From: Ulva prolifera
Lineage: Eukaryota > Chlorophyta > Ulvophyceae > Ulvales > Ulvaceae
Direction: 5' to 3'
Length of the DNA: 64,000 bases
Assembly (NCBI GenBank): GCA_023078555.1
Contig: CM041196.1
Location: 4,847,658-4,911,657, forward strand
Every line of letters begins with the position of its first letter. Position 1 is the stretch's first letter. The notes beneath the pieces are model-generated. The model saw only the letters and a program-made list of their open reading frames with translations. It ran no database searches and was not told where the DNA came from. The position numbers and the translations under genes were made by a program. Shown here in pieces: positions 541-58,403 of the stretch.

Positions 541-3384
<2,844 letters not shown>

Positions 3385-4179
3385 CTGCAGGGAAATTGAT
3401 AAGTTTGTGCATGAGGCAGTGCGCAACACGAAATGGAGAAGCGACTTCTGACATTATACATAGGCAGGAGGGACTGCGGGACGACAATAGACTGGACTCG
3501 GTGGTCGCAGGCATCAGTGCGACAGGCACATGTGCGACTGCCCTTAAAACGCCATGAGTCAAGCTAGGCACCCATATACTGACGTTAAATTTTCGCTGTT
3601 AATGCCGTTGTGGTCAGGGCCGCACCTCTTCGGGAGACTTGGCATGAGCGTCGGTGATGACAGCCATGGTCGACGCGGTTCAGCTAGCAGCCACTGCTGA
3701 TCGGGTAAGCCTTGCACGTGGTTGGCGAAAATTTGAATAACATGATCTAGTTTTGCTTGCTTAGTATTTTCGGCCGAGTGGGATCGGCGGGCTGTGCATT
3801 TGCAACATCGCAGCACTGCCTGGACAACATTCCAGACCCACAATTGCACATCTGGCGATGCAATAACGCACGTATTCGTACAAATGAGTTCTGAATATGC
3901 TTTCCATCATGTGTCCCATCTTTGAGCAACTAGTACGACTGCCACAACAGATGCTCCCATCATCCTGCGGATGTGTGTCGAGCGGGGCAACTTGAACGTC
4001 GGATTTGTTTCAAGCCGCGCGTTGTAAGAACCCAGAAGGTGTCACCAATCCAAATGAGTAGCTGCAGCTCTGGTGGTCTCCAAGTATAATTGAGCTGATG
4101 CCGAGTAGCCGATGTGTGCGTCAGTGTCGAGAGGAGCTGCGTCGGACCTGCTGTTGCGTTGCAGTAGACCATCTTTCAG
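3385..4179. other. no gene recognised
   Basis: Spacer between the divergently placed SERCA-type gene (-) and ICMT (+). The missing first SERCA exon and the promoters of both genes should lie here, but I see no convincing exon or core promoter motif. Confidence 0.5.
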
Positions 4180-29180: not shown

Positions 29181-29736
29181 ATCATTGACGTAGCTAGTGC
29201 ATTCGAGTGGGTACGCCACAGAATGTCCAACCGGCCTCATCAAACCCAGCAGGTGTACAATGGTTGCGGCAACGGCAGCACACAGTTGAGTTGCTGCTGT
29301 AAAGCTGCCACTCAACCGTGTGCAGCCTTGCAGCAGCAACTCAGCTCATATGCATGCACCCTCTGCAGGCTCTGTGCCCTACTGCCTTTGGAACCCTGTT
29401 CCCGTTTGCCCTGGCGTGGGAGTAATGGTGCATGAGTGGGGAGATCCGCAACGCGGCCTCCGCGGCTCATCACCTTCACTAGCTGCCTATAGGCTTCCTC
29501 TTTTCAGTACATGTGCAATACTTCAGTTTTAAGGTGACAGTACAGTCATTTGTAACCTCGCCGGCCCAGATTCTTCTCATCGCCAGCATTGCCAGCATCG
29601 CCGATGGTGTTTCGCAGCACACTCCGCACGCCGAATTGTATTGACGCCAATTTGTCCAATGTCCCAAACATGAGTCAGGCTGCTGAGCGAACTGCTTGAC
29701 TGCCAGGTCGTGCGGTGCATACACACACGTGTGGCC
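29181..29736. other. no gene recognised
   Basis: Spacer between the repeat block and the NB-ARC gene. A 5' exon or the promoter of that gene may lie here; no clear motif was seen. Confidence 0.4.
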
Positions 29737-30654
29737 ATGCATCCAAGGATGCACCTCGATCTGAAAGCCGATGCCCTGCAGGTGATGTTTTATGGGAAGG
29801 AAGCACGCAAGAAAGCAGGCGAGAATGCAGGCAAGGCTGCGGGAAAGGCAGCTGGCACCGCCGTGAAGACAGTCCTTCCCCCGATCGTCAGCGATGTCGC
29901 CGGCTGGGCTGTTGAGGAGTCAATTCAGTGGCTGGTAGAACGTGGAATAGCCATCGGCGGCCACCCAAAGCAGTGCCGGAAGCTGCTCGATCAGCTGAGC
30001 AAAGCGGAGCTCCTGAATGCTGCACATGCCTTCGACCAGCTGACGGATCTGCCTGAATTTGCGTGCCACCGGCCAAAGTATCAGGCCCTGTGTGACACTC
30101 TGCAGGAGGCCGAGGTGCTGCTGCTGCACGTGCAATCCAGGTCGCAGAGGTTGTGGCAGCGAGTGTTCTACAGCAGCAGGCCCAAAGAGTTACGCTCTTC
30201 GCTACAGGAAGTCTGCAATCTGGACACAGCCTTGAAGCTGTACCCAACGCTGAAGAGCAGGGCAGCGTCTGTGCCCACAGCGCCCCGCATCACCTTCGGC
30301 AGGTTACCGTCTATGCAGCCCTACAGAGGCCCATCGAGCGAGCTGCCGCAGTACAGTGAGCCTGCCCTGCCGCCGCATGTCTTCCAGCACTGCGACGACC
30401 TCGTGCCCCTTATTGACGAGCAGCTCAAGGACAACCGCAACATCGGCATCGTCGGGGCTCCTGGCATCGGCAAGACGACCATCGCCCGCGCAGTGTTTGC
30501 GCGCGCCAGGTCGCGCTTTGATGATGCTGTGTGGCTGACGGTCGGGAAAGATGCAAACGACAGAGAAATGCTGCGCCTTCTCGAGGCGGCATTTGTCAAG
30601 CTGTATCCCGGCTGTTGGCAACGCTGTCTCTGTATTGACGCGACGGAAAGCTGA
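29737..30654 (+). CDS. RPW8/HeLo-like helical domain plus NB-ARC NTPase, truncated NLR-like protein
   Basis: The frame from ATG 29737 to TGA encodes 305 residues. Residues about 20-160 form an Ala/Lys-rich helix (GKEARKKAGENAGKAAGKAA) followed by amphipathic helices with a Trp-Gln-Arg segment (RLWQRVFYSSRPKELRSSL), the pattern I associate with RPW8/MLKL-type four-helix bundles of plant helper NLRs. Residues 240-248 are a Walker A motif, GAPGIGKTT, in NB-ARC context: preceded by a linker with DDLVPLIDEQL and NIGIV, followed by ARARSRFDDAVWLTVG, an RNBS-A-like strand. The frame stops about 45 residues after the P-loop; kinase-2 (LLVLDD), RNBS-B, GLPL and MHD were not found downstream on this strand. 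So it is a short product, an interrupted gene, or a gene with later exons I missed. The first 15 codons may be intron, since CTGCAG precedes GTGATG at about 29780. The NB-ARC call is firm; the RPW8-like call is tentative. Confidence 0.72.
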   Translation: MHPRMHLDLKADALQVMFYGKEARKKAGENAGKAAGKAAGTAVKTVLPPIVSDVAGWAVEESIQWLVERGIAIGGHPKQCRKLLDQLSKAELLNAAHAFDQLTDLPEFACHRPKYQALCDTLQEAEVLLLHVQSRSQRLWQRVFYSSRPKELRSSLQEVCNLDTALKLYPTLKSRAASVPTAPRITFGRLPSMQPYRGPSSELPQYSEPALPPHVFQHCDDLVPLIDEQLKDNRNIGIVGAPGIGKTTIARAVFARARSRFDDAVWLTVGKDANDREMLRLLEAAFVKLYPGCWQRCLCIDATES

Positions 30655-32063: not shown

Positions 32064-33029
32064 CTAGCATGGCTGGTAGTCTGCAGCCACGTGGAAGCCG
32101 TTGGCGGACATGCCGCCGTCGATGGGCAGCACATGCCCGGTGATGAAGGACGCTGCAGCCGAGGCGAGGAACACCATCACACCTGCACACACACACACCT
32201 CCTCAAGCACCGGCCGGCACACATCACACACCCACGTGTGTGTATCGGTGGCAAATTGGATGCAGACAGCTGATGCGGGCAGCGACTTGATGGTGGCTCA
32301 CGGCGGCAGCAGGTGGGGTTGGTGGTTCACTCGACTGCGAAGCTGCACCGGCATCCCCGACTACAATGGTGGACTGCATCTCCCAGGATCGATGTTGAGC
32401 GTAACATCCGTGGCGTATTTTCAATTCAGGCCGCGGCCCGACATGGGGCCGCTGTTGAACCCCCCGGGCTGCAGCCTGGTGGCAACGGTAGCAGCCTAGA
32501 CACAGCGCAGTGACCTCGCATGACAGCAACGTGAGGGGAACTGCCGAAGCAGGTGCTGGCACACGAGCCGTCTCGCAGGGGCACCTGAGAGTGACAAGGG
32601 GCGCGCCCGACGTCTCCTCCGGCTCCGCGATGCGGCCGAGCGGCGTGCGCGCCAGCACACCCTGCCGGAAGCCGTCGTCCTGCAGCGCCTGCCGCACGAG
32701 CGGCGTCGCGGCGAACCACGGCGCGACCGCGTTGACGCGGATCCCGTCCCGCGCCCACTCGCACGCGAGGCTCCGCGTCAGCTGATTCAGCGCCGCTGCA
32801 TACACCCCGCTGGGCTGGCACAGGCTGCCGCAGGGCACGGTTCCCTGGTGTCTCCGTGCATGCCAGATTCTATGCAAGCTGCCGTGAGTAGCGTGTCTTG
32901 CGGTAGCCGATTCCGCTGTTTGCGCGCTTGCCCCATGCCGCCCCTGTGTCATCACGTGTTTGTCCAGGCAATGCATGTAGATCCTGGGAGGTACACATCG
33001 ATGCAAAGACAGATGTGGACTCTGCGTTC

Positions 33030-33077
<48 letters not shown>

Positions 33078-33323
33078 TTGGCTTACCTTTCGTCATCCCG
33101 TAGACGCATCCGCTCCACAGCGCCAGCGGGCCGCCAGCCACGGAGGAGTTAAACATGATGGATGGTGCGCTGGATCTGGCGAGGTGCGGCCGGCAGAATT
33201 GACAGAGACGCAGTGTAGAGCGCACGTTCGTTGCCATCATCATGTCAAAGTCCTCTGCAGTTGCGTCCTCAGCCTGCCGGCGGCGATTCGTGCCGACGTT
33301 GTTGACCAGAACATCCAGCTGCC
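32064..33323 (-). CDS. short-chain dehydrogenase/reductase, tropinone reductase-like, N-terminus missing
   Basis: NAD(P)H-dependent SDR; substrate unknown. Three exons fit: 33323-33087, 32795-32607 and 32064-32182. Exon a has GQLDVLVNNVGTN and NSSVAGG (active-site Ser); the catalytic YxxxK is YGMTK with its Lys at the splice, continuing as ALNQLTRSLACEWARDGIRV in exon b; exon c ends with SFITGHVLPIDGGMSANGF and TAG. This is close to plant tropinone-reductase-like SDRs. The junction b-c keeps frame only with a GC donor (GCGCGC), a one-base variant of the local GTGCGC donor. Intron a-b has donor GTAAGC and a 45-nt C-run. The N-terminal Rossmann exon (TGxxxGIG) was not found, and a damaged second copy lies at 35.8-36.3 kb, so this copy may itself be incomplete. 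Confidence 0.82.
33032..33076. repeat. poly(G) tract, 45 nt
   Basis: Longest homopolymer in the window; C45 in the SDR transcript, starting about 10 nt after the donor at 33086. The assembled length is unlikely to be exact. Confidence 0.9.
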
Positions 33324-33555
33324 CTGAAACCATGGACATCGTTGGGTTCAGCTGCAGCTGAGGTTGAGGATGTGAAGGACGTGTATAGGAGGGGGTGCAG
33401 GCCTATTGCCACCTGCGCATTGTTCGATGCTGCATGCCATTGGATGTACCCTTCCACTCCGTAATGAAAAGCAGATGACGTCCCTACACTCCAGAAGACA
33501 TCAAGGCCATGGCATGCCACCAGCATGAGGTCAGGCCTGAGGTGTTCGGTGACAG

Positions 33556-49916: not shown

Positions 49917-52900
49917 CTACTCTGGGGAGAGGTTGGTGACCAGCGGCCGCTCGACTGGCGGCGGCGGTGGCGGGATGCGGTCGTCCGGGTTCTCCTTTGG
50001 CTTGTACAGCCCCTCGAACTCCGGCTTGACGCGGCCGACGTCCTCCAGCGGCCCGAGCCGGAAGTCGTTCGGCCGGCCCTGACGGCACACGCGGCTCTTC
50101 ATGAAGGCCGTGCCCTTCACGTTCATGCACTCGGAGTACCCGACGGGCTGCGTGTGCACGCCCGCGAACAGCATCGGCAGCGCGAAGTTGTTCTCGAGCG
50201 AGACGACGGTCGTGTTGCGGCCACGGACGTCCTTCGGGAAGTCCTCAAAGATGGGGTTCCACAGGAGGCCGCCGTCGATGGAGTTGAAGTCAGGGTTGTC
50301 TTCAAGGGCGACACGCACGGAGCACTCGCCGTTGGGCGGGCACGACGCGCCGCGGTGCCATGTGCGCGTGAAGGTGCGGTCGTCGTACCCGATCATGAAC
50401 GGCTTGTGCCGCACGATGCCGGTGACCTGGCCGCCCAGGAGGTACCGCGCCTGCTCCGCCGCAAAGCACTGGAAACCTGCATGCGGATACGAGCCGTGAG
50501 CCGTGCTTGTGGCCAAACAGAACCCCCTGTCAGGTGCAGGGCCACCTCAAGCATTCACAGCGAACACGGCGAGGCTCGGGAGGTGGGCATGGCGATAACG
50601 CCATCTGCTTTGTCGGCATGCATGAGCACCACGCATGTGCAGAGCCGCAGCAGCAGAGGCACACTCTTGATGAGGCCGTAGTCCTCCCTCACTAAGTTCG
50701 AGTCTTTGTTCTTGTGGATGTACACGGCGGCCATGGCGGCGGCGCCGGCGGTGGAGCCGAGGTGGGGGGTGTCGAAGAAGTAGGCGCGGCCGTTGCGCGT
50801 GTACTTCACCAGCTCGTCATTGCAGATCCAGTCCCAGATGAAGGACTGCGCGGCGAGGTGGTAGGACACGTCGTCCGTGATGCAGGACGCGTGCGTAACG
50901 GCGAGGTTATTCATGTAATCCCACGACACCCCCGGCAGATCAAGCTCGCCGTACCTGCACACGTTGGGCAGAGATTCCAGCAGCTGTCCGGGTCCCCGCA
51001 CACGCCTTCCAGGCGCATACTGCAACACAACATGCACATGCATGGTCAGGGGGAAGCAGCAGGCGGGGAGGGCGCACGCAAGAGACATGGTCGTGGACAT
51101 CGCCTCGCCGTAGTAGCTTTGGTTGAAGTTGCGGATGCTGTTGATGGACGCCCGGTACAGCCATGTCGACGCCCAGAAGAGGTCGTCGCCGAACGCTGAG
51201 GAGGGGTAGTGGTCCTCGATGCCGAAGCTGGCGTCGGTGCCGTTGAAGCCCTCGGTGTAGAGGCCCGGCGAGAACATCGCGCTCTGGAACAGCCGGTGCG
51301 CCTTGTCCACCTGCGCACATGCACCCCATGCATCACACCCCACAGAAACCTGTCTGCGGCTTCAGAGTCCCGCAGACGCCCTGCTTGCAAAACAGAGGCG
51401 TTCAAGGCAGGGTGGCATGCTGTGTGCTACGGCATGTTGCAGACGCCGTGACCCCCGGCTGCGGACACAATGCACGTTGCGGCGGGTGAGGCTGGCGCGT
51501 GGGGCGAGGCGGGCGAACCATGTTCTTTGCGACGGTGCGGTCAATGACGTCGTACTGCTGCAGCGCGATGGCGCCGGCGGTGATGGCCGCGACGACCTGG
51601 CCTGCGAGGTCGGAGGGGGACTCGTCCAGCAGCATGAAGCCGACGTCGTACTGCATGCCTGCAAAGCGCGTCACGTCCTCCGGCCGCCGCCACTCCTGCC
51701 GCTCCTCTTGCACATTGCCCACCTGCACACGTCGGCCCGCGTCACACCACAGATGACCCCATCGCGCCCGCCCGTCATGGCGCCGCATCGCACAGAATCC
51801 AACAGGGGGCTGGTGGAGTTGGTGGAGCTGATGCGGGCTGATGCGGGCTGATGCGGGCAAGCATGCATGCACAGACTTGGCAGAACGCAGCTGCATCGGC
51901 ACACACATCAGCAGCTCTGACCACTGATTGACTCGAGAAGAGCCATCCTGGGTCGATAACAATGCATGCACGTCAACGCTGGCACAAATGCAGAGGACCA
52001 TGTCAGACTGTGAGGCGCCCGCATTAGGCAGAGCACAGGAGGGCACACAGCAGACACGCACCACATATATGATCTGGTCATTGCTGGACGACATCAGCTT
52101 CGTCGGGTCGATCGGGTCGCGCAGCGGCGTGACGACGTAGATCTCCTGCATGTAGAGAGCACCCTGCAGCAGGATCGAGCTGATGTCGTTCTGTAGCTCC
52201 ACCGATTGGCTCCAGAACTTGGGGTATTCGAGCATGCTCCATGCCAGCATCGACGTCGTCACCGCGACATTCCAAGTCAGCTTCACCGCCCCGATCTCGC
52301 CTTCGTTGTAGAAGCCACCGGACAGGTCGACCTGCTTGTAGAAAAAGTCGGTCTTGTCCGTCACGACGCCCTTGGTGACGTTTGTGAACGTCATGTTGAC
52401 CGCGCTGTACTGCAGACCAGAGTCGGAGCGCCAGGTGATAGGGTACCCTGCGCCGAGCTTGCCGGAACGCTCGGCATTGAGGAAGCGCAACGAGAGGCGT
52501 GCAGCCCGGCCAAAGTCCACTTCGCGCGGGTACAGCAGCCAGAGGAATGCAAACGCGGCGGCCGCAGCGAGGCCGGAGAGCACCATAAACAGCGTGCAGA
52601 GGCGCGTGAGGAGCATGCCCTGGCCGAAGTTCCAGTACGCGAGCAGCAGCGCCGGGGGCGCGAAGTTGATGACGACGAGGCAGAGCGAGAGGACCGTCGG
52701 GAGGTTGATGACCTCACGGAGGTGGATGCAGCCGCCGATGAAGGCGATGAGGGAGAGCACGACAAAGATGAGGGGCCAGCGGAGGGCCTTGATGTTGCGC
52801 GCGGGCGCGAGGTCAGACCAGCTGCGGCTTCGGAAGGAGGTCCCGGGGCCGATCGCGGCCTTGAGCGGGATGAGGAAGGAGGCCTTGAAGTCATACCACC

Positions 52901-55900
52901 AGCAGATGGAGACGGCGATGCGGGAGAACCAGAGCGCGCGCATCTGCTTGAGGCTGTCGCAGTAGAGCAGCATGACGATGCGGACGAGGTAGTGCGCCAT
53001 CATCGTCACGACGACGTGCACCGTGAAGTTCACGGGGAAGTAGCCGAAGATGAGGTGCACGATCGGGACGAGCGTGAAGATGAGTGTCCACAGGCCTACA
53101 CTCACGCAAACCCTCTCTCCCATTAATGCAACTGTTCAGCAGCCTCGGAACGCTGCACGCGTGCAACGCAGGGTGGAGGAGGATATCAGCAGACGCACAG
53201 GCATGCATGCATATGTTCCAGTTCTGGGTGTCGGGCGGTTCCGTCAAACCAGCTGCGCTGCTCAAGGAGATTGGTGCAGAGCTCTGTGATGCTGCTGAAC
53301 CGCCTGGCCACACGATGAGCTATGCGGGCACGTTAAGGGACGTGGATTGGACGGGTGATAGCAGCAAAACGTGACGGCTCGGATTGAGGCAGGGGCCGCA
53401 CCAGACGCGAAGGCCTGGAAGCAGCGGCTGGCGTACATCAGGCGGTAGAAGAGGCCGAGGTCGCGCTGCAGCAGCGGGCACTGGTGCGACCAAAACGTTT
53501 GGAAGTAGCCGCGGGAGTGGCGGTAATGCGCATCAACGGCATCGCAGATCTCCTCCGGCGCCTCGCCGATCGCAGAATACTCTGGAACGTAGCGGCTCTT
53601 CCAGCCGTAACTCCTCTACACACCATGGCACAACCCAACTTGGAACACCGCTGGAAACCCTGCGCGCATCCCTGCTGCCGGAATGCCTTTGCAGATGCGC
53701 TGTGTGAAGCGGCAGCCGCAGCAAACCATGTTGGCCTGCCATGCATAGACTTGCCAGGATGGGGCTGCTAGCCCGGACCGTGCAACAGCTGCCACGTAGG
53801 GTGTGGCTGGCAGGGACGCACCAGCAGCATGCCCATCTCCCAGTTCTCTGCAAGCGTGTGTGTGGGTAGCCACCCGACCTCTTGCAACGCGCGCGCCCTC
53901 AGCAGCATGTTGGTGTGCATCATCGCCGTGAAGCCGTAGGCGTCCATGCCGAGCTGCATGCGCTCGCAGTACGCGACCTTCTGGGCATCGAAGATGTCGC
54001 AGTCGCCGTCGACGTTGTAGCAGATGCGTGGGCAGATGGCCGCCGCGATGTCGTCGCCGCTGTCGACGTAGCGCAGGAGGTTGACGAAGAAGGAGGAGGA
54101 GCACGTCTGGTCAGCGGTGACGACGCACACGAGCTCACTCGCGCTGATGTTCTTGCGCCCGTCTGGGTCGGCGTCGGGGTAGATCAACGACAGCGCGAAG
54201 TTCATGATCTCGGAGCACCAGTTTGTGACCTGCACAGGACGGCTGCCGTTGCGCACGGCAGATGGATTTCGGAGATGGTGGCGGCCGGGAATTCATGGGA
54301 TCAAAACTCCTGTGTTCCACGACAGAACTTACATATCTTCCAGTGAAGCCCCGACACACAGCAGGTGGAGGTGCGGGTGCGGCATGCAGCAACACACCCC
54401 TGATACACCCCAAGCACAGGTGAGCGTACGCACCTTGGTGTCAGACGAGCGCACAGGCGGCGTGATGTAGATCACGTCCGTGCCGTGCTTCACACCCATG
54501 AAGAAGTCACGCTTTGTGTTGTCCCGCTCCTGATCCAGCAGGTACAGCTTCAGCTCGCAGCCGTCTGGGATGTACGCGTTCCGGACGCTCGCGATCGTGC
54601 GCCGCACAAGGGACAGGCTCTCGCCCTTGCACAGGATGAAGACGCGCACGACGTACAGCCGCCGCATCTTGTCGCTGTCGAAGCTCTTCACCTTCATGTC
54701 GTCGTTGTTCGTCTTTGCGGCAAGCCAGATGCCGTAAAAGACGAGGGAGAGGATGGAGAGCATCTCGGCCGAGAGGACGATCGCACCGTACCACAGCTCG
54801 CTGCCGAGGCCGTCAAGCGAATAGATGATGCGGGCGACGATGTACGCGCCGCTGGTGACGAGGTAGAGGAGGAAGATGAGGAGGCCGATAAGGTCGACGC
54901 GGGTCAGCCGGATCCACGTTGTGAAGGACTCCATCTCCTGCGCGACGTCCGCCTTCGAGATCGGCCTGCACACACGTGCGCCTTTGTGGGGCTGTGACTA
55001 GTAGAGCCGGAAAATAGGGGTTTCGTTGGATGATGCAGCTCCGTGCGGCCAGCGATGCCGGGATGCGGAACGGGTGCAAGGGCAGGGGCCGGGGGGGACA
55101 CGAGGGGGTGGCACCCAACACAAGCATGCTTGGCCTCCGACTTGCGGCAACAGTGACACGATCACCCGCCGTCGCGAGTGATGTGGCACAGGTGCTGCGG
55201 ATACATGAGGGGGTATCATGAGGGTGATTCAGCACTGTGTACAGCCCAGGAACATGGGGCCAGGTCTGAATCCTGGAGAAGGTTCATCAACACTGCACAT
55301 CACCATGTGGCCCTTCCAGGAATACACATATCACATGATGCCTCAGATGTTGCACAGGGCATTGCTTGATGTGAAACCCGCACCAGCCCACTGGCAGCTG
55401 TGGATGGCCCCTGCAGGCTACCAGCTGCTGCCCCGTGTGGCCATGTGTGTGCGGCCATAGTACAGCAGCAGAGCTCAGGTACGGTAGCATGCAGGTTCAG
55501 TACGCAGGGGGTGCCAGTGGTGAGATGGGTGAACGCACAGGCATCGTTGGACATAGACGCCTCGAGGAGTCATCACATCTTTGCTGTCATCGTCATCAGA
55601 ATCATCTTCGTTCTCGTCACCGTGGCTCACAGATGTTGCAGAGTCGATGTCCTTATAAACAGCCCCACCCGCCCGCCCGCCACTGACACTTGTAGCAGCA
55701 TCCTCAATGTTGTCGTACCCTTCTACGTTGTCCTCATACTCCATCATCTCCTTCAGCTGGACACAGGCCTCCTTGATGTCGACAATCTGCCGCTCGAACT
55801 GCATCCTGCGGCCAGGACCAGTGCCAGCACTAGTCGTCAGTGCCTCACTCAGGCCTGCAGTGTGGCTGATTGGCACAGTGACGCCGAGCTGGCCCATCTC

Positions 55901-56053
55901 GTGTCGGACCATGTCGTGCTTCTTGGCGACCTCGTCGATCAGGTTAGTCATGCCGTCCGCAGCATCTTCATCAGCTACGTCTGTGGAGCGCAGGACCTTC
56001 TCAGCGTGCTGAGCAGCACGCATCGTCAGATCCAGGTGCTCCCGGAGCCGTTG
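49917..56053 (-). CDS. membrane GT2 glycosyltransferase fused to a GH9 cellulase domain
   Basis: Nine exons join in phase: 56053-55539, 54965-54434, 54229-53822, 53615-53402, 53095-52062, 51722-51519, 51310-51099, 50954-50665 and 50476-49917 (TAG); at least 1,322 residues, first exon unseen. Order: acidic/coiled cytosolic region; two membrane helices (LIGLLIFLLYLV and a second); a GT2 core (YLLDQERD, VTADQTC, TLAENWEMG, then YFQTFWSHQ where QxxRW is expected); five more helices; then a GH9 domain with ITWRSDSGL, GGFYNEGE, LLSW-like MLAWSMLEY, W-RRPEDV, HRGAS and a C-terminal KDVRGRN region. Helix count places the GT2 core in the cytosol and GH9 outside. Exon 53095-52062 alone encodes both the last GT2-side helices and the start of GH9, so the fusion is not an annotation artefact. 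Usual catalytic residues look replaced in both domains (see findings). Family calls are firm; activity is uncertain. Confidence 0.88.
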
Positions 56054-58403
56054 CTGCATGCACACCCGACGTCGATTTCTATTCGCAGGTACACTGACCA
56101 CATACGGTTCAAGGAGCAGCCAAAGCGGACATGGCTCACAGCTAGTGCAAGCATCAGATGTTTCAGGCTCTATTTCAGGCTCAAGGCAACCGCTCGTGGG
56201 TGGGGGATGGAAAGATGTCAGCGCGACGTGAGTTTGAAGAGCACGTCTTGGAGCAGAAAATTTCAACTGCCGTCAACAAATATACAACAATTTCGGCTTG
56301 TGGGACGACACGGGTCGGCTCGCCGCGATATGGGCGACTCTGTGCGTCGCGTCGCATCGGCGACTGCTGGCGCACACGATTGTAGGCGTTGCAACAAAGG
56401 CCATTATGAGAAACCGTGTCAAGGAAAAACTGCCAGCATTGATGCATCGAACGGATGCAAGTTGGGCAGCAGTAGCTGGGGAGGTTGACGCATCAGCTCA
56501 GGTTTTTAATGATCGCCGGAGGATGCGATGAGACACTGCCAACATTGCTACAGAACAGTTTGGACGGACCATGGCACTGTTGCATTACAGTATAGCTACC
56601 GAGCTAGGCCTATTGAAACGTGGCTGCATCGGTGCCATCTGTGCGAGGTAACCGCAACGCTGGGTAAGATGCTGTCATGCTGGAAAACACGGACATCACC
56701 GCAGTAATGCCGTGAGTGAATAGAACCGGGCTTGTAATTTTATAAACTTGGCCAGTTTTGCAGCGGTATTGCCGCAGAGACGTACAAGAAAGTTTCGTGT
56801 ACAGCTACCCCCGCAGAACATCCAGAACAGCGCTGCAAGCCTGTTCAAACATGTAAAACACACAAGATGAGCTGTCGGGTGCTTACCGATGCAATGGGAT
56901 CCATCGTCCCCATTGTTGCCCGCTACAGGGCCTCCCAACGGACCAGCAACTGAGTCGATCGCCAACGACGCACACCCTCGAAGCTCTCCTAAGCTCTACA
57001 CAAATTTATGAAAGACTTCACAAGCTAGACTATGCCAAGCTGAGGAGGGCCTTGCTCTAGTGCCTATCTGATGATCATGAAGATCATGAGGAGAGCATCA
57101 GACACAGAGCCTGCGCGAGGACGGTGTAGCAAGAGTGATGAACTGAACTGTGTCGACGTTGATCACTGCTCGAAAACTCCGCAATTGCCCGTGGCGAGCG
57201 TGCTTGATTAACGCGGCGGGCACGCCTTGACACGCTTCATCCCGTGCCATCGATGTGCATAATCGGGACAAACGTACGTTCACTGACCTTGCGCTGGCAC
57301 CGCAGGATACATAGCCTTTGAATATCAATGCGCATGTCCACTGGCCATAGCATAATCAGTCGCTGATGTGTAGCGCTTGCTAGTTTTCATGGCAGGCTCT
57401 CGTTCTGGCGACTGCAGACATCGCAACCTCCAGCGCATCAGCCTGCGTCACTGCATTGACGTTGCGGTCCAGCTGTGTGGTTGCCCGGATTTGGCCACGA
57501 ACATTCTATTGCTGCCTGCTCCAGATCATATGTCTGGCCGCGCTGCCAACACCAAGGATGCAATTCCGTGCCGTATATGAGACAGCCATTGAAGATGATG
57601 TTGAGTCTGGTATATAGAAACATATGCACGCCCCCCCTGGCCGAGCCGTCATATGTCTGAAGCGCATAGATTCTGTTACGTGCAAATGAACGTGTGCTAA
57701 ATGGGGTGGCCGGAACTCGTTTGCGTCACTGTTGCAACATGTTGTGCTAGCTAAGTATTACGCAAACAATCAGAGAAACACCAGTAAAAGAACAAAAAAC
57801 AAAAAAAATCCCCCAAAACAGGAGAAAATCATATATTCAGAGCATATGCTGAAGCTCGCTGCAAGTTGACAGCGCGAAGGCAACATGCACTCACAGTGGC
57901 GGATGCACTCAGCCCAGATCTTCAGATAAGTGACGTTACCTCGGTCCCAGCAGAAACTCGTCCTTTTACGCTGTATGCCAGACATATGCACCTGAAGCCC
58001 CTTATCTCGTCCATTTACACAACAGGTCTCTACCTAGACAAATCATATTGTTATGCAGGTGATGCCATCAAGGACATTGCACGACGTCCCGTCACCCCAC
58101 TGTCACACAGTCAAACCAGTGGGTAAAAATGTACAAAAAAAAAGGTGAGGATCGTGTGCGCTCTCGACCTCAACCGGCACTGGGTCTGGTATGTCACAAT
58201 GGTCAGGGCACCATGCAGAGCACACAGCGCATCCTCGACAATTCCAGTATATTCACAAGCCAAAAACGCATGTGCTGGTCCCGCGCGCAGATGCTGACCC
58301 CTTGCCAAGCATCTGCCACTCGCAGCGCACACACTATCACCACAACTCCACCCAGTAACCCCTCTCGTCCAGCAAACCGGTAAGCATGTCATTCATTCCT
58401 GCC
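56054..58403. other. no gene recognised
   Basis: Expected to hold the missing first exon and promoter of the GT2-GH9 gene; none identified. The stretch is AT-richer than the exons, with an A-rich run at 57785-57815. Confidence 0.45.

Follow-up and report, generated by a model that had tools for sequence, protein, structure and literature searches.

What might a membrane protein do if it joins the core of a polysaccharide synthase to a cellulase-family domain and appears to have lost the catalytic residues of both? The question is raised by a gene at 56059-49917, minus strand, in a stretch of 64,000 nucleotides from the green alga Ulva prolifera (GenBank assembly GCA_023078555.1, contig CM041196.1, positions 4,847,658 to 4,911,657, forward strand), the whole of which we call the window. 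The gene, WIN below, encodes a cellulose-synthase-type glycosyltransferase (GT2) core followed by a GH9 domain; its paralogues in the same genome are named C1b, C8, C3 and C4, and fusion proteins from databases carry P-numbers. We suggest that the WIN product is probably a double pseudoenzyme, judging from its aligned residues, and we give somewhat better than even odds (roughly 0.55) to the proposal that it would act as a non-catalytic, glucan-binding integral-membrane partner of the active paralogues C8, C3 and C4.

One gene, one polypeptide

WIN has nine exons and eight introns, all GT-AG, and encodes 1,331 aa without an internal stop; the frame is kept across every splice, as the sequence-only reading of this locus had proposed. 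That reading had placed the start at 56053; the sole in-frame ATG downstream of the upstream stop lies at 56059, and we have moved the start accordingly. A splice-aware alignment guided by P0001 alone, with no introns supplied, returned the identical eight introns. Pfam places GH9 (PF00759) at aa 754-1195 (E 8e-46, 157.7 bits against a cut-off of 27.7) and GT2 at aa 447-583 (PF13632, E 4.6e-11) and aa 282-509 (PF13641, E 2e-6), both GT2 matches above the curated cut-offs, which bears out the pairing of the two domains in a single chain. The join lies near aa 750, inside the 1,034-bp exon 5 (52062..53095) where it had been expected. An erroneous merger of two adjacent genes can be ruled out, since the join falls within one open exon and is common to relatives. 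Nor is the fusion a matter of chance, because four database proteins, P0001-P0004, align with 99-100% of aa 180-1300 at identities of 37-55%. As modelled from the genome, the GT2-GH9 fusion is real and forms one polypeptide.

All exons lie on the minus strand. Exon 1 (55539..56059) carries the start codon and an acidic N-terminal region, presumably cytosolic; exon 2 (54434..54965) encodes hydrophobic helices at aa 199-217 and 235-253 and the start of the GT2 core, which continues through exon 3 (53822..54229) and ends in exon 4 (53402..53615). The C-terminal hydrophobic helices, the join and the start of GH9 follow in exon 5; GH9 fills exons 6 (51519..51722), 7 (51078..51310) and 8 (50665..50954) and ends in exon 9 (49917..50476), ahead of a proline-rich tail and the stop. 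WIN thereby has the layout of the green-algal GT2-GH9 family, a single chain in which GT2 has two membrane helices on its N-terminal side and several on its C-terminal side, with GH9 next. The GH9 part of the WIN protein is predicted to lie outside the membrane, in agreement with the earlier topology.

The same architecture had been proposed as a target for database searches, and 24 GT2-GH9 proteins were found: the four end-to-end relatives, 19 further proteins (P0006-P0024) retrieved with a profile of those four and carrying precomputed GT2 and GH9 domains, and P0040, added by a final search. Source names of relatives include Trebouxia sp. C0006, Auxenochlorella protothecoides, Symbiochloris irregularis (two) and EukProt transcripts. 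Two of the last, P0016 and P0017, bear Trinity transcript names and contain both domains, which makes the fusion a single transcript in the species they come from. The U. prolifera genome (88.9 Mb in 44 contigs) holds at least five fusion genes, namely WIN, C1b (C1:3.03 Mb), C8, C3 and C4, a lower bound that comes from scoring 40 of 71 candidates. Its plastocyanin, joined from two exons, is identical at 98 of 98 residues to PDB 7PCY, the U. prolifera protein, with 1IUZ as the next match; by this one marker the source is likely U. prolifera or a very near relative. The C1b model took the WIN protein as its guide, and the C1b exons matching WIN exons 6, 7 and 8 have equal lengths (204, 233 and 290 bases); the 5' ends of the C1b, C3 and C4 models and the 3' end of C4 are uncertain.

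Catalytic residues in the two halves

The sequence-only reading paired a synthase-like GT2 with a cellulase-family domain; judged by their motifs, neither half of WIN is likely to work as an enzyme. Of the 28 fusions, 23 keep all four GT2 motifs (DDG, DxD, TED and QxxRW), and WIN, C1b and P0001 keep none. Motif by motif, the intact counts are 24/28, 25/28, 25/28 and 24/28; DDG also fails in P0021, owing to a gap, and QxxRW in P0015, at an apparently shifted end. In WIN, DDG reads DQE (54535-54527, aa 318-320; from the family alignment alone), DxD reads TAD (54118-54110), TED reads AEN (53851-53843) and QxxRW reads AHYRH (53531-53517). Alignment to the bacterial structure 5EJ1 pairs FDAD with VTAD, TED with AEN and QRGRW with AHYRH. 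WIN (FRSRSW, 52835-52818), P0001 and, by eye, C1b have also lost the FxxTxK-type loop, which in BcsA is the gating loop. By these alignments, the WIN core has lost the motifs for donor-sugar and metal binding, the catalytic base and acceptor binding.

The GH9 loss is wider. We aligned the 28 fusions with seven other GH9s as references, counting among the latter the second GH9 of C3 (L018), itself degenerate; 26 fusions cover the position of the catalytic acid, P0015 and P0022 do not. Glutamate stands there in none of the 26, its place being taken by Val (11), Arg (7), Ala (6), Ser (1) or Ile (1). The first Asp of the DAGD motif is kept in one fusion (P0024) and the second in none. In WIN the acid position is Val1236 (50207-50205), the DAGD site reads NEGE (52307-52296) and the HHR motif retains its HR (50357-50352). 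A profile of 19 database fusions searched against PDB gave an alignment to the termite enzyme 1KS8 that agrees, with Asp-Ala-Gly-Asp opposite n-d-g-(ev)-G and Asn-Glu-Val opposite t-v-v. For the DAGD base of WIN the family and profile alignments give Gly but a single-sequence alignment gives Glu825, which makes the loss of the base less certain than the loss of the acid. Over the 71 columns conserved in at least six of the seven references, the median column persists in 16 of the 26 fusions, the Arg of HHR in 20, and several columns of Gly, Trp and Gln in every one of them. By alignment, then, fold columns are better kept than catalytic residues across the fusions, and the fused GH9 is predicted to be dead throughout the family. 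L017 and L023, which are stand-alone Ulva GH9s, have the full set of three catalytic residues, as does a second GH9 of C4 (L021).

That second domain belongs to an apparent GT2-GH9-GH9 arrangement, in one frame, seen in C4 (L020+L021, G000:C4:872033-884406, plus strand) and C3 (L019+L018, G000:C3, minus strand). Past the first GH9 the frame runs through an acidic stretch with PLTR and a GT-AG intron into the second GH9, and the joined C4 model has two stretches that Pfam assigns to GH9. L021 reads YDAGD and SEVALDYNA; L018 reads D, G, R at the three positions, two of its catalytic residues being lost. No second GT2-GH9-GH9 protein appeared among 21 matches to the 1,600-aa C4 model. The single GH9 of P0040 (1,699 aa) contains a long insert, and its motifs are dead by eye. 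P0041, a 913-aa Ciona savignyi protein named cellulase, aligns to 64% of the C4 query and perhaps has two GH9 domains.

Shifted constraint and possible roles

WIN and C1b have 46% amino-acid identity over the GT2 core and 69% over GH9, the reverse of C8-P0002 (77% and 57%), C3-C4 (78% and 54%) and P0003-P0004 (82% and 74%). On one fixed topology of 26 fusions, the WIN-C1b distance is 1.80 substitutions per site in GT2 against 0.42 in GH9, whereas GT2 changes less than GH9 in all four other pairs compared. The clade with dead GT2 motifs accounts for 24.1% (21.3-28.6) of tree length in GT2 and 7.1% (6.4-7.9) in GH9, the ranges spanning 40 bootstrap replicates per set. Minus C1b the shares are 14.4% (12.0-17.7) and 5.9% (5.2-6.3); the GT2 excess persists, and hence the shift is not due to C1b alone. 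On this tree, the GT2 core is accelerated relative to GH9 in the WIN-C1b-P0001 clade, in reverse of the other pairs.

The residues lost from both halves suggest a helper role in making cell-wall sugar chains. We posit that the WIN protein would neither make nor cut glucan, and would sit in the plasma membrane or secretory membranes with its GT2 shell in the cytosol and its GH9 shell outside. Its GT2 and membrane part would assemble with the active paralogues, and its pseudo-GH9 would hold or guide the glucan chain extruded by the C8, C3 and C4 proteins. These last would be working synthases, each with a membrane-near GH9 shell that binds the emerging chain, and the intact second GH9 of C4 may trim it. 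WIN and C1b would have given up both reactions and kept the shells.

Among the alternatives, the one that survives best, though we consider it unlikely, is that the fused GH9 is a secreted wall protein for which the membrane part is merely an anchor and targeting device. Relaxed GT2 constraint with kept GH9 constraint would fit this; a whole GT2 shell with seven helices is, however, a costly anchor, and in the membrane part identity to P0001 and C1b still stands at 49-55%. Somewhat less probable is a pseudogene in the making, its GT2 decayed under relaxed selection and the rest to follow. The GT2 core of C1b is strongly diverged (46% to WIN, the longest branch), but WIN runs through nine exons without a stop or frameshift, the dead state is common to P0001 and therefore, by the tree, older than the WIN-C1b duplication, and the GH9 domains of the pair have stayed 69% identical although the catalytic acid is gone. 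We think it improbable, at perhaps one chance in ten, that the GH9 of WIN is active via a shifted site, in which Glu825 would serve as the base and the SLENN residue Glu1240 as the acid. Acidic residues do lie near both sites (NEGE and SLENN), and the first alignment pairs Glu825 with the base; two other alignments put Glu1240 at the Asp of DYN and Val at the acid, P0023 and P0024, which lack a two-residue insertion, have Gly at the base, and C3 and C4 have Gly at the position of the SLENN Glu. Least likely of all is a GT2 core active on another donor by unusual chemistry, for although its fold match exceeds the Pfam cut-offs and the core is 60% identical to P0001, four independent motifs and the gating-type loop were lost jointly and the core is accelerated.

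Several observations weigh against the non-catalytic partner that we favour. In WIN, DDG retains its first Asp and QxxRW its Arg, P0001 retains the Asp of TED, and a loose gating-loop pattern is present in 26 of 28 fusions, C1b included, though C1b is without FxxTxKG by eye. With Glu825 opposite the GH9 base in the first alignment, one carboxylate may survive. GH9 loss also occurs outside the fusions, the stand-alone Ulva L024 reading E, N, E (EAGN, with the Glu acid retained). Complex formation with the paralogues is pure inference on our part, and the hydrolase-synthase precedents, by analogy, would favour coupling and oppose a purely passive GH9.

Relatives, precedents and meaning

In a GT2 tree sampled from search matches only, with P0015 and P0022 excluded beforehand as truncated, the fusions form a clade of 28 members (support 0.973), comprising 26 fusions and the GT2-only P0025 and P0026. 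This group adjoins P0031 (GT2 with GH5; support 0.961) and then P0027-P0030 (GT2 with GH6; 0.962). The GH5 of P0031 has NEP and GEW sequences that, by eye, resemble an intact active site. A Zygnema preprint describes a group, CslP, that falls together with the CesA proteins of tunicates, amoebae, oomycetes and red algae (PMC9915684), and the GT2-GH9 family may be a candidate for placement near it. A prokaryotic or viral origin of the architecture was rejected, within the limits of contig scans that used two to six short peptide patterns each and can miss relatives: viral contigs scanned with P0004 and A2, and genome contigs scanned with A2, yielded none. The matches listed by a BFVD fold search include GT2-like proteins, such as M1HTG7 and one GT2 protein from a Yasminevirus, and no GH9 name.

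Elsewhere in the genome, L010 (G000:C1:5407552-5408301) and L011 (G000:C9:1596164-1596913) are GT2 matches without GH9 that sit on separate contigs and agree in score, frame length and size, which may point to recent duplication or to a mobile copy. G000:C5:9568015-9644324 contains eight matches to the GH9 profile, perhaps a tandem array; they are ~10 kb or more apart in places, and seven fall on roughly the last 67 positions at the C-terminal end. The window itself has an open frame with an NB-ARC match (29674-30651, plus; 31.8 bits against a cut-off of 23.5), a frame matching a P-type cation ATPase N-terminus (2491-3453, minus) and one with a short-chain dehydrogenase match in two stretches (32227-33402, minus); Rfam and tRNA scans of it gave no match.

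The sequence-only reading knew of no green-algal example, but in Coccomyxa subellipsoidea four of nine GH9 proteins include a cellulose-synthase-like domain that resembles the tunicate one, such algal domains being then known solely from Coccomyxa, Chlorella variabilis and Emiliania huxleyi (PMC3446292). The domain pairing is that of WIN; the available part of that paper does not state the domain order, and treats the fusions as cellulose synthase plus cellulase without mentioning lost residues, whereas WIN has lost its GT2 motifs too (PMC3446292). Searches of open-licence PMC literature, exclusive of subscription papers and supplements, turned up no mention of lost GH9 residues in such fusions, of a dead-GT2 copy or of a GT2-GH9-GH9 protein. 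The pairing is thus already described, and the new part seems to be the lost catalytic chemistry.

Tunicate CesA-GH6 is alike in that its cellulose-synthase-type GT2 is joined to a domain of a cellulase family, one that has lost its catalytic Asp (PMC7464555), and dead cellulase domains on synthases may therefore have arisen more than once. It differs in carrying GH6, of another fold, and is probably a separate fusion; GH6 (PF01341) has no Pfam match in the WIN protein up to E 1. The solved GT2 closest by sequence, bacterial BcsA (PDB 5EJ1, 4P00), has its own motifs intact and a PilZ domain in place of GH9. In land plants the membrane-bound GH9 KORRIGAN1 (GH9A1) acts in the cellulose synthase complex with CESA, where its exact role is unknown; unlike the fused domain it is separate from CESA, and its glucanase activity is reported as needed (PMC8774047). 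Nor does the WIN protein have the KORRIGAN-type GH9A layout of a single N-terminal membrane anchor without GT2. As a tentative extension, on which we would not bet at even odds, the CESA-KORRIGAN partnership may have become covalent in green algae and its labour then split within one gene family, among active synthases with a chain-binding pseudo-cellulase (C8, C3 and C4), an added intact GH9 cutter in C4, and dead synthase copies (WIN and C1b) as structural or regulatory pseudo-CESA subunits.

Ulva wall-polymer biosynthesis is described as still without thorough analysis, and Ulva CESA homologues group apart from plant CESA (PMC8307928). A synthase-fused GH9 without its acid residue would make it possible to tell the binding of a chain apart from its cutting, and the double-dead clade would be a pseudo-synthase and a candidate subunit.
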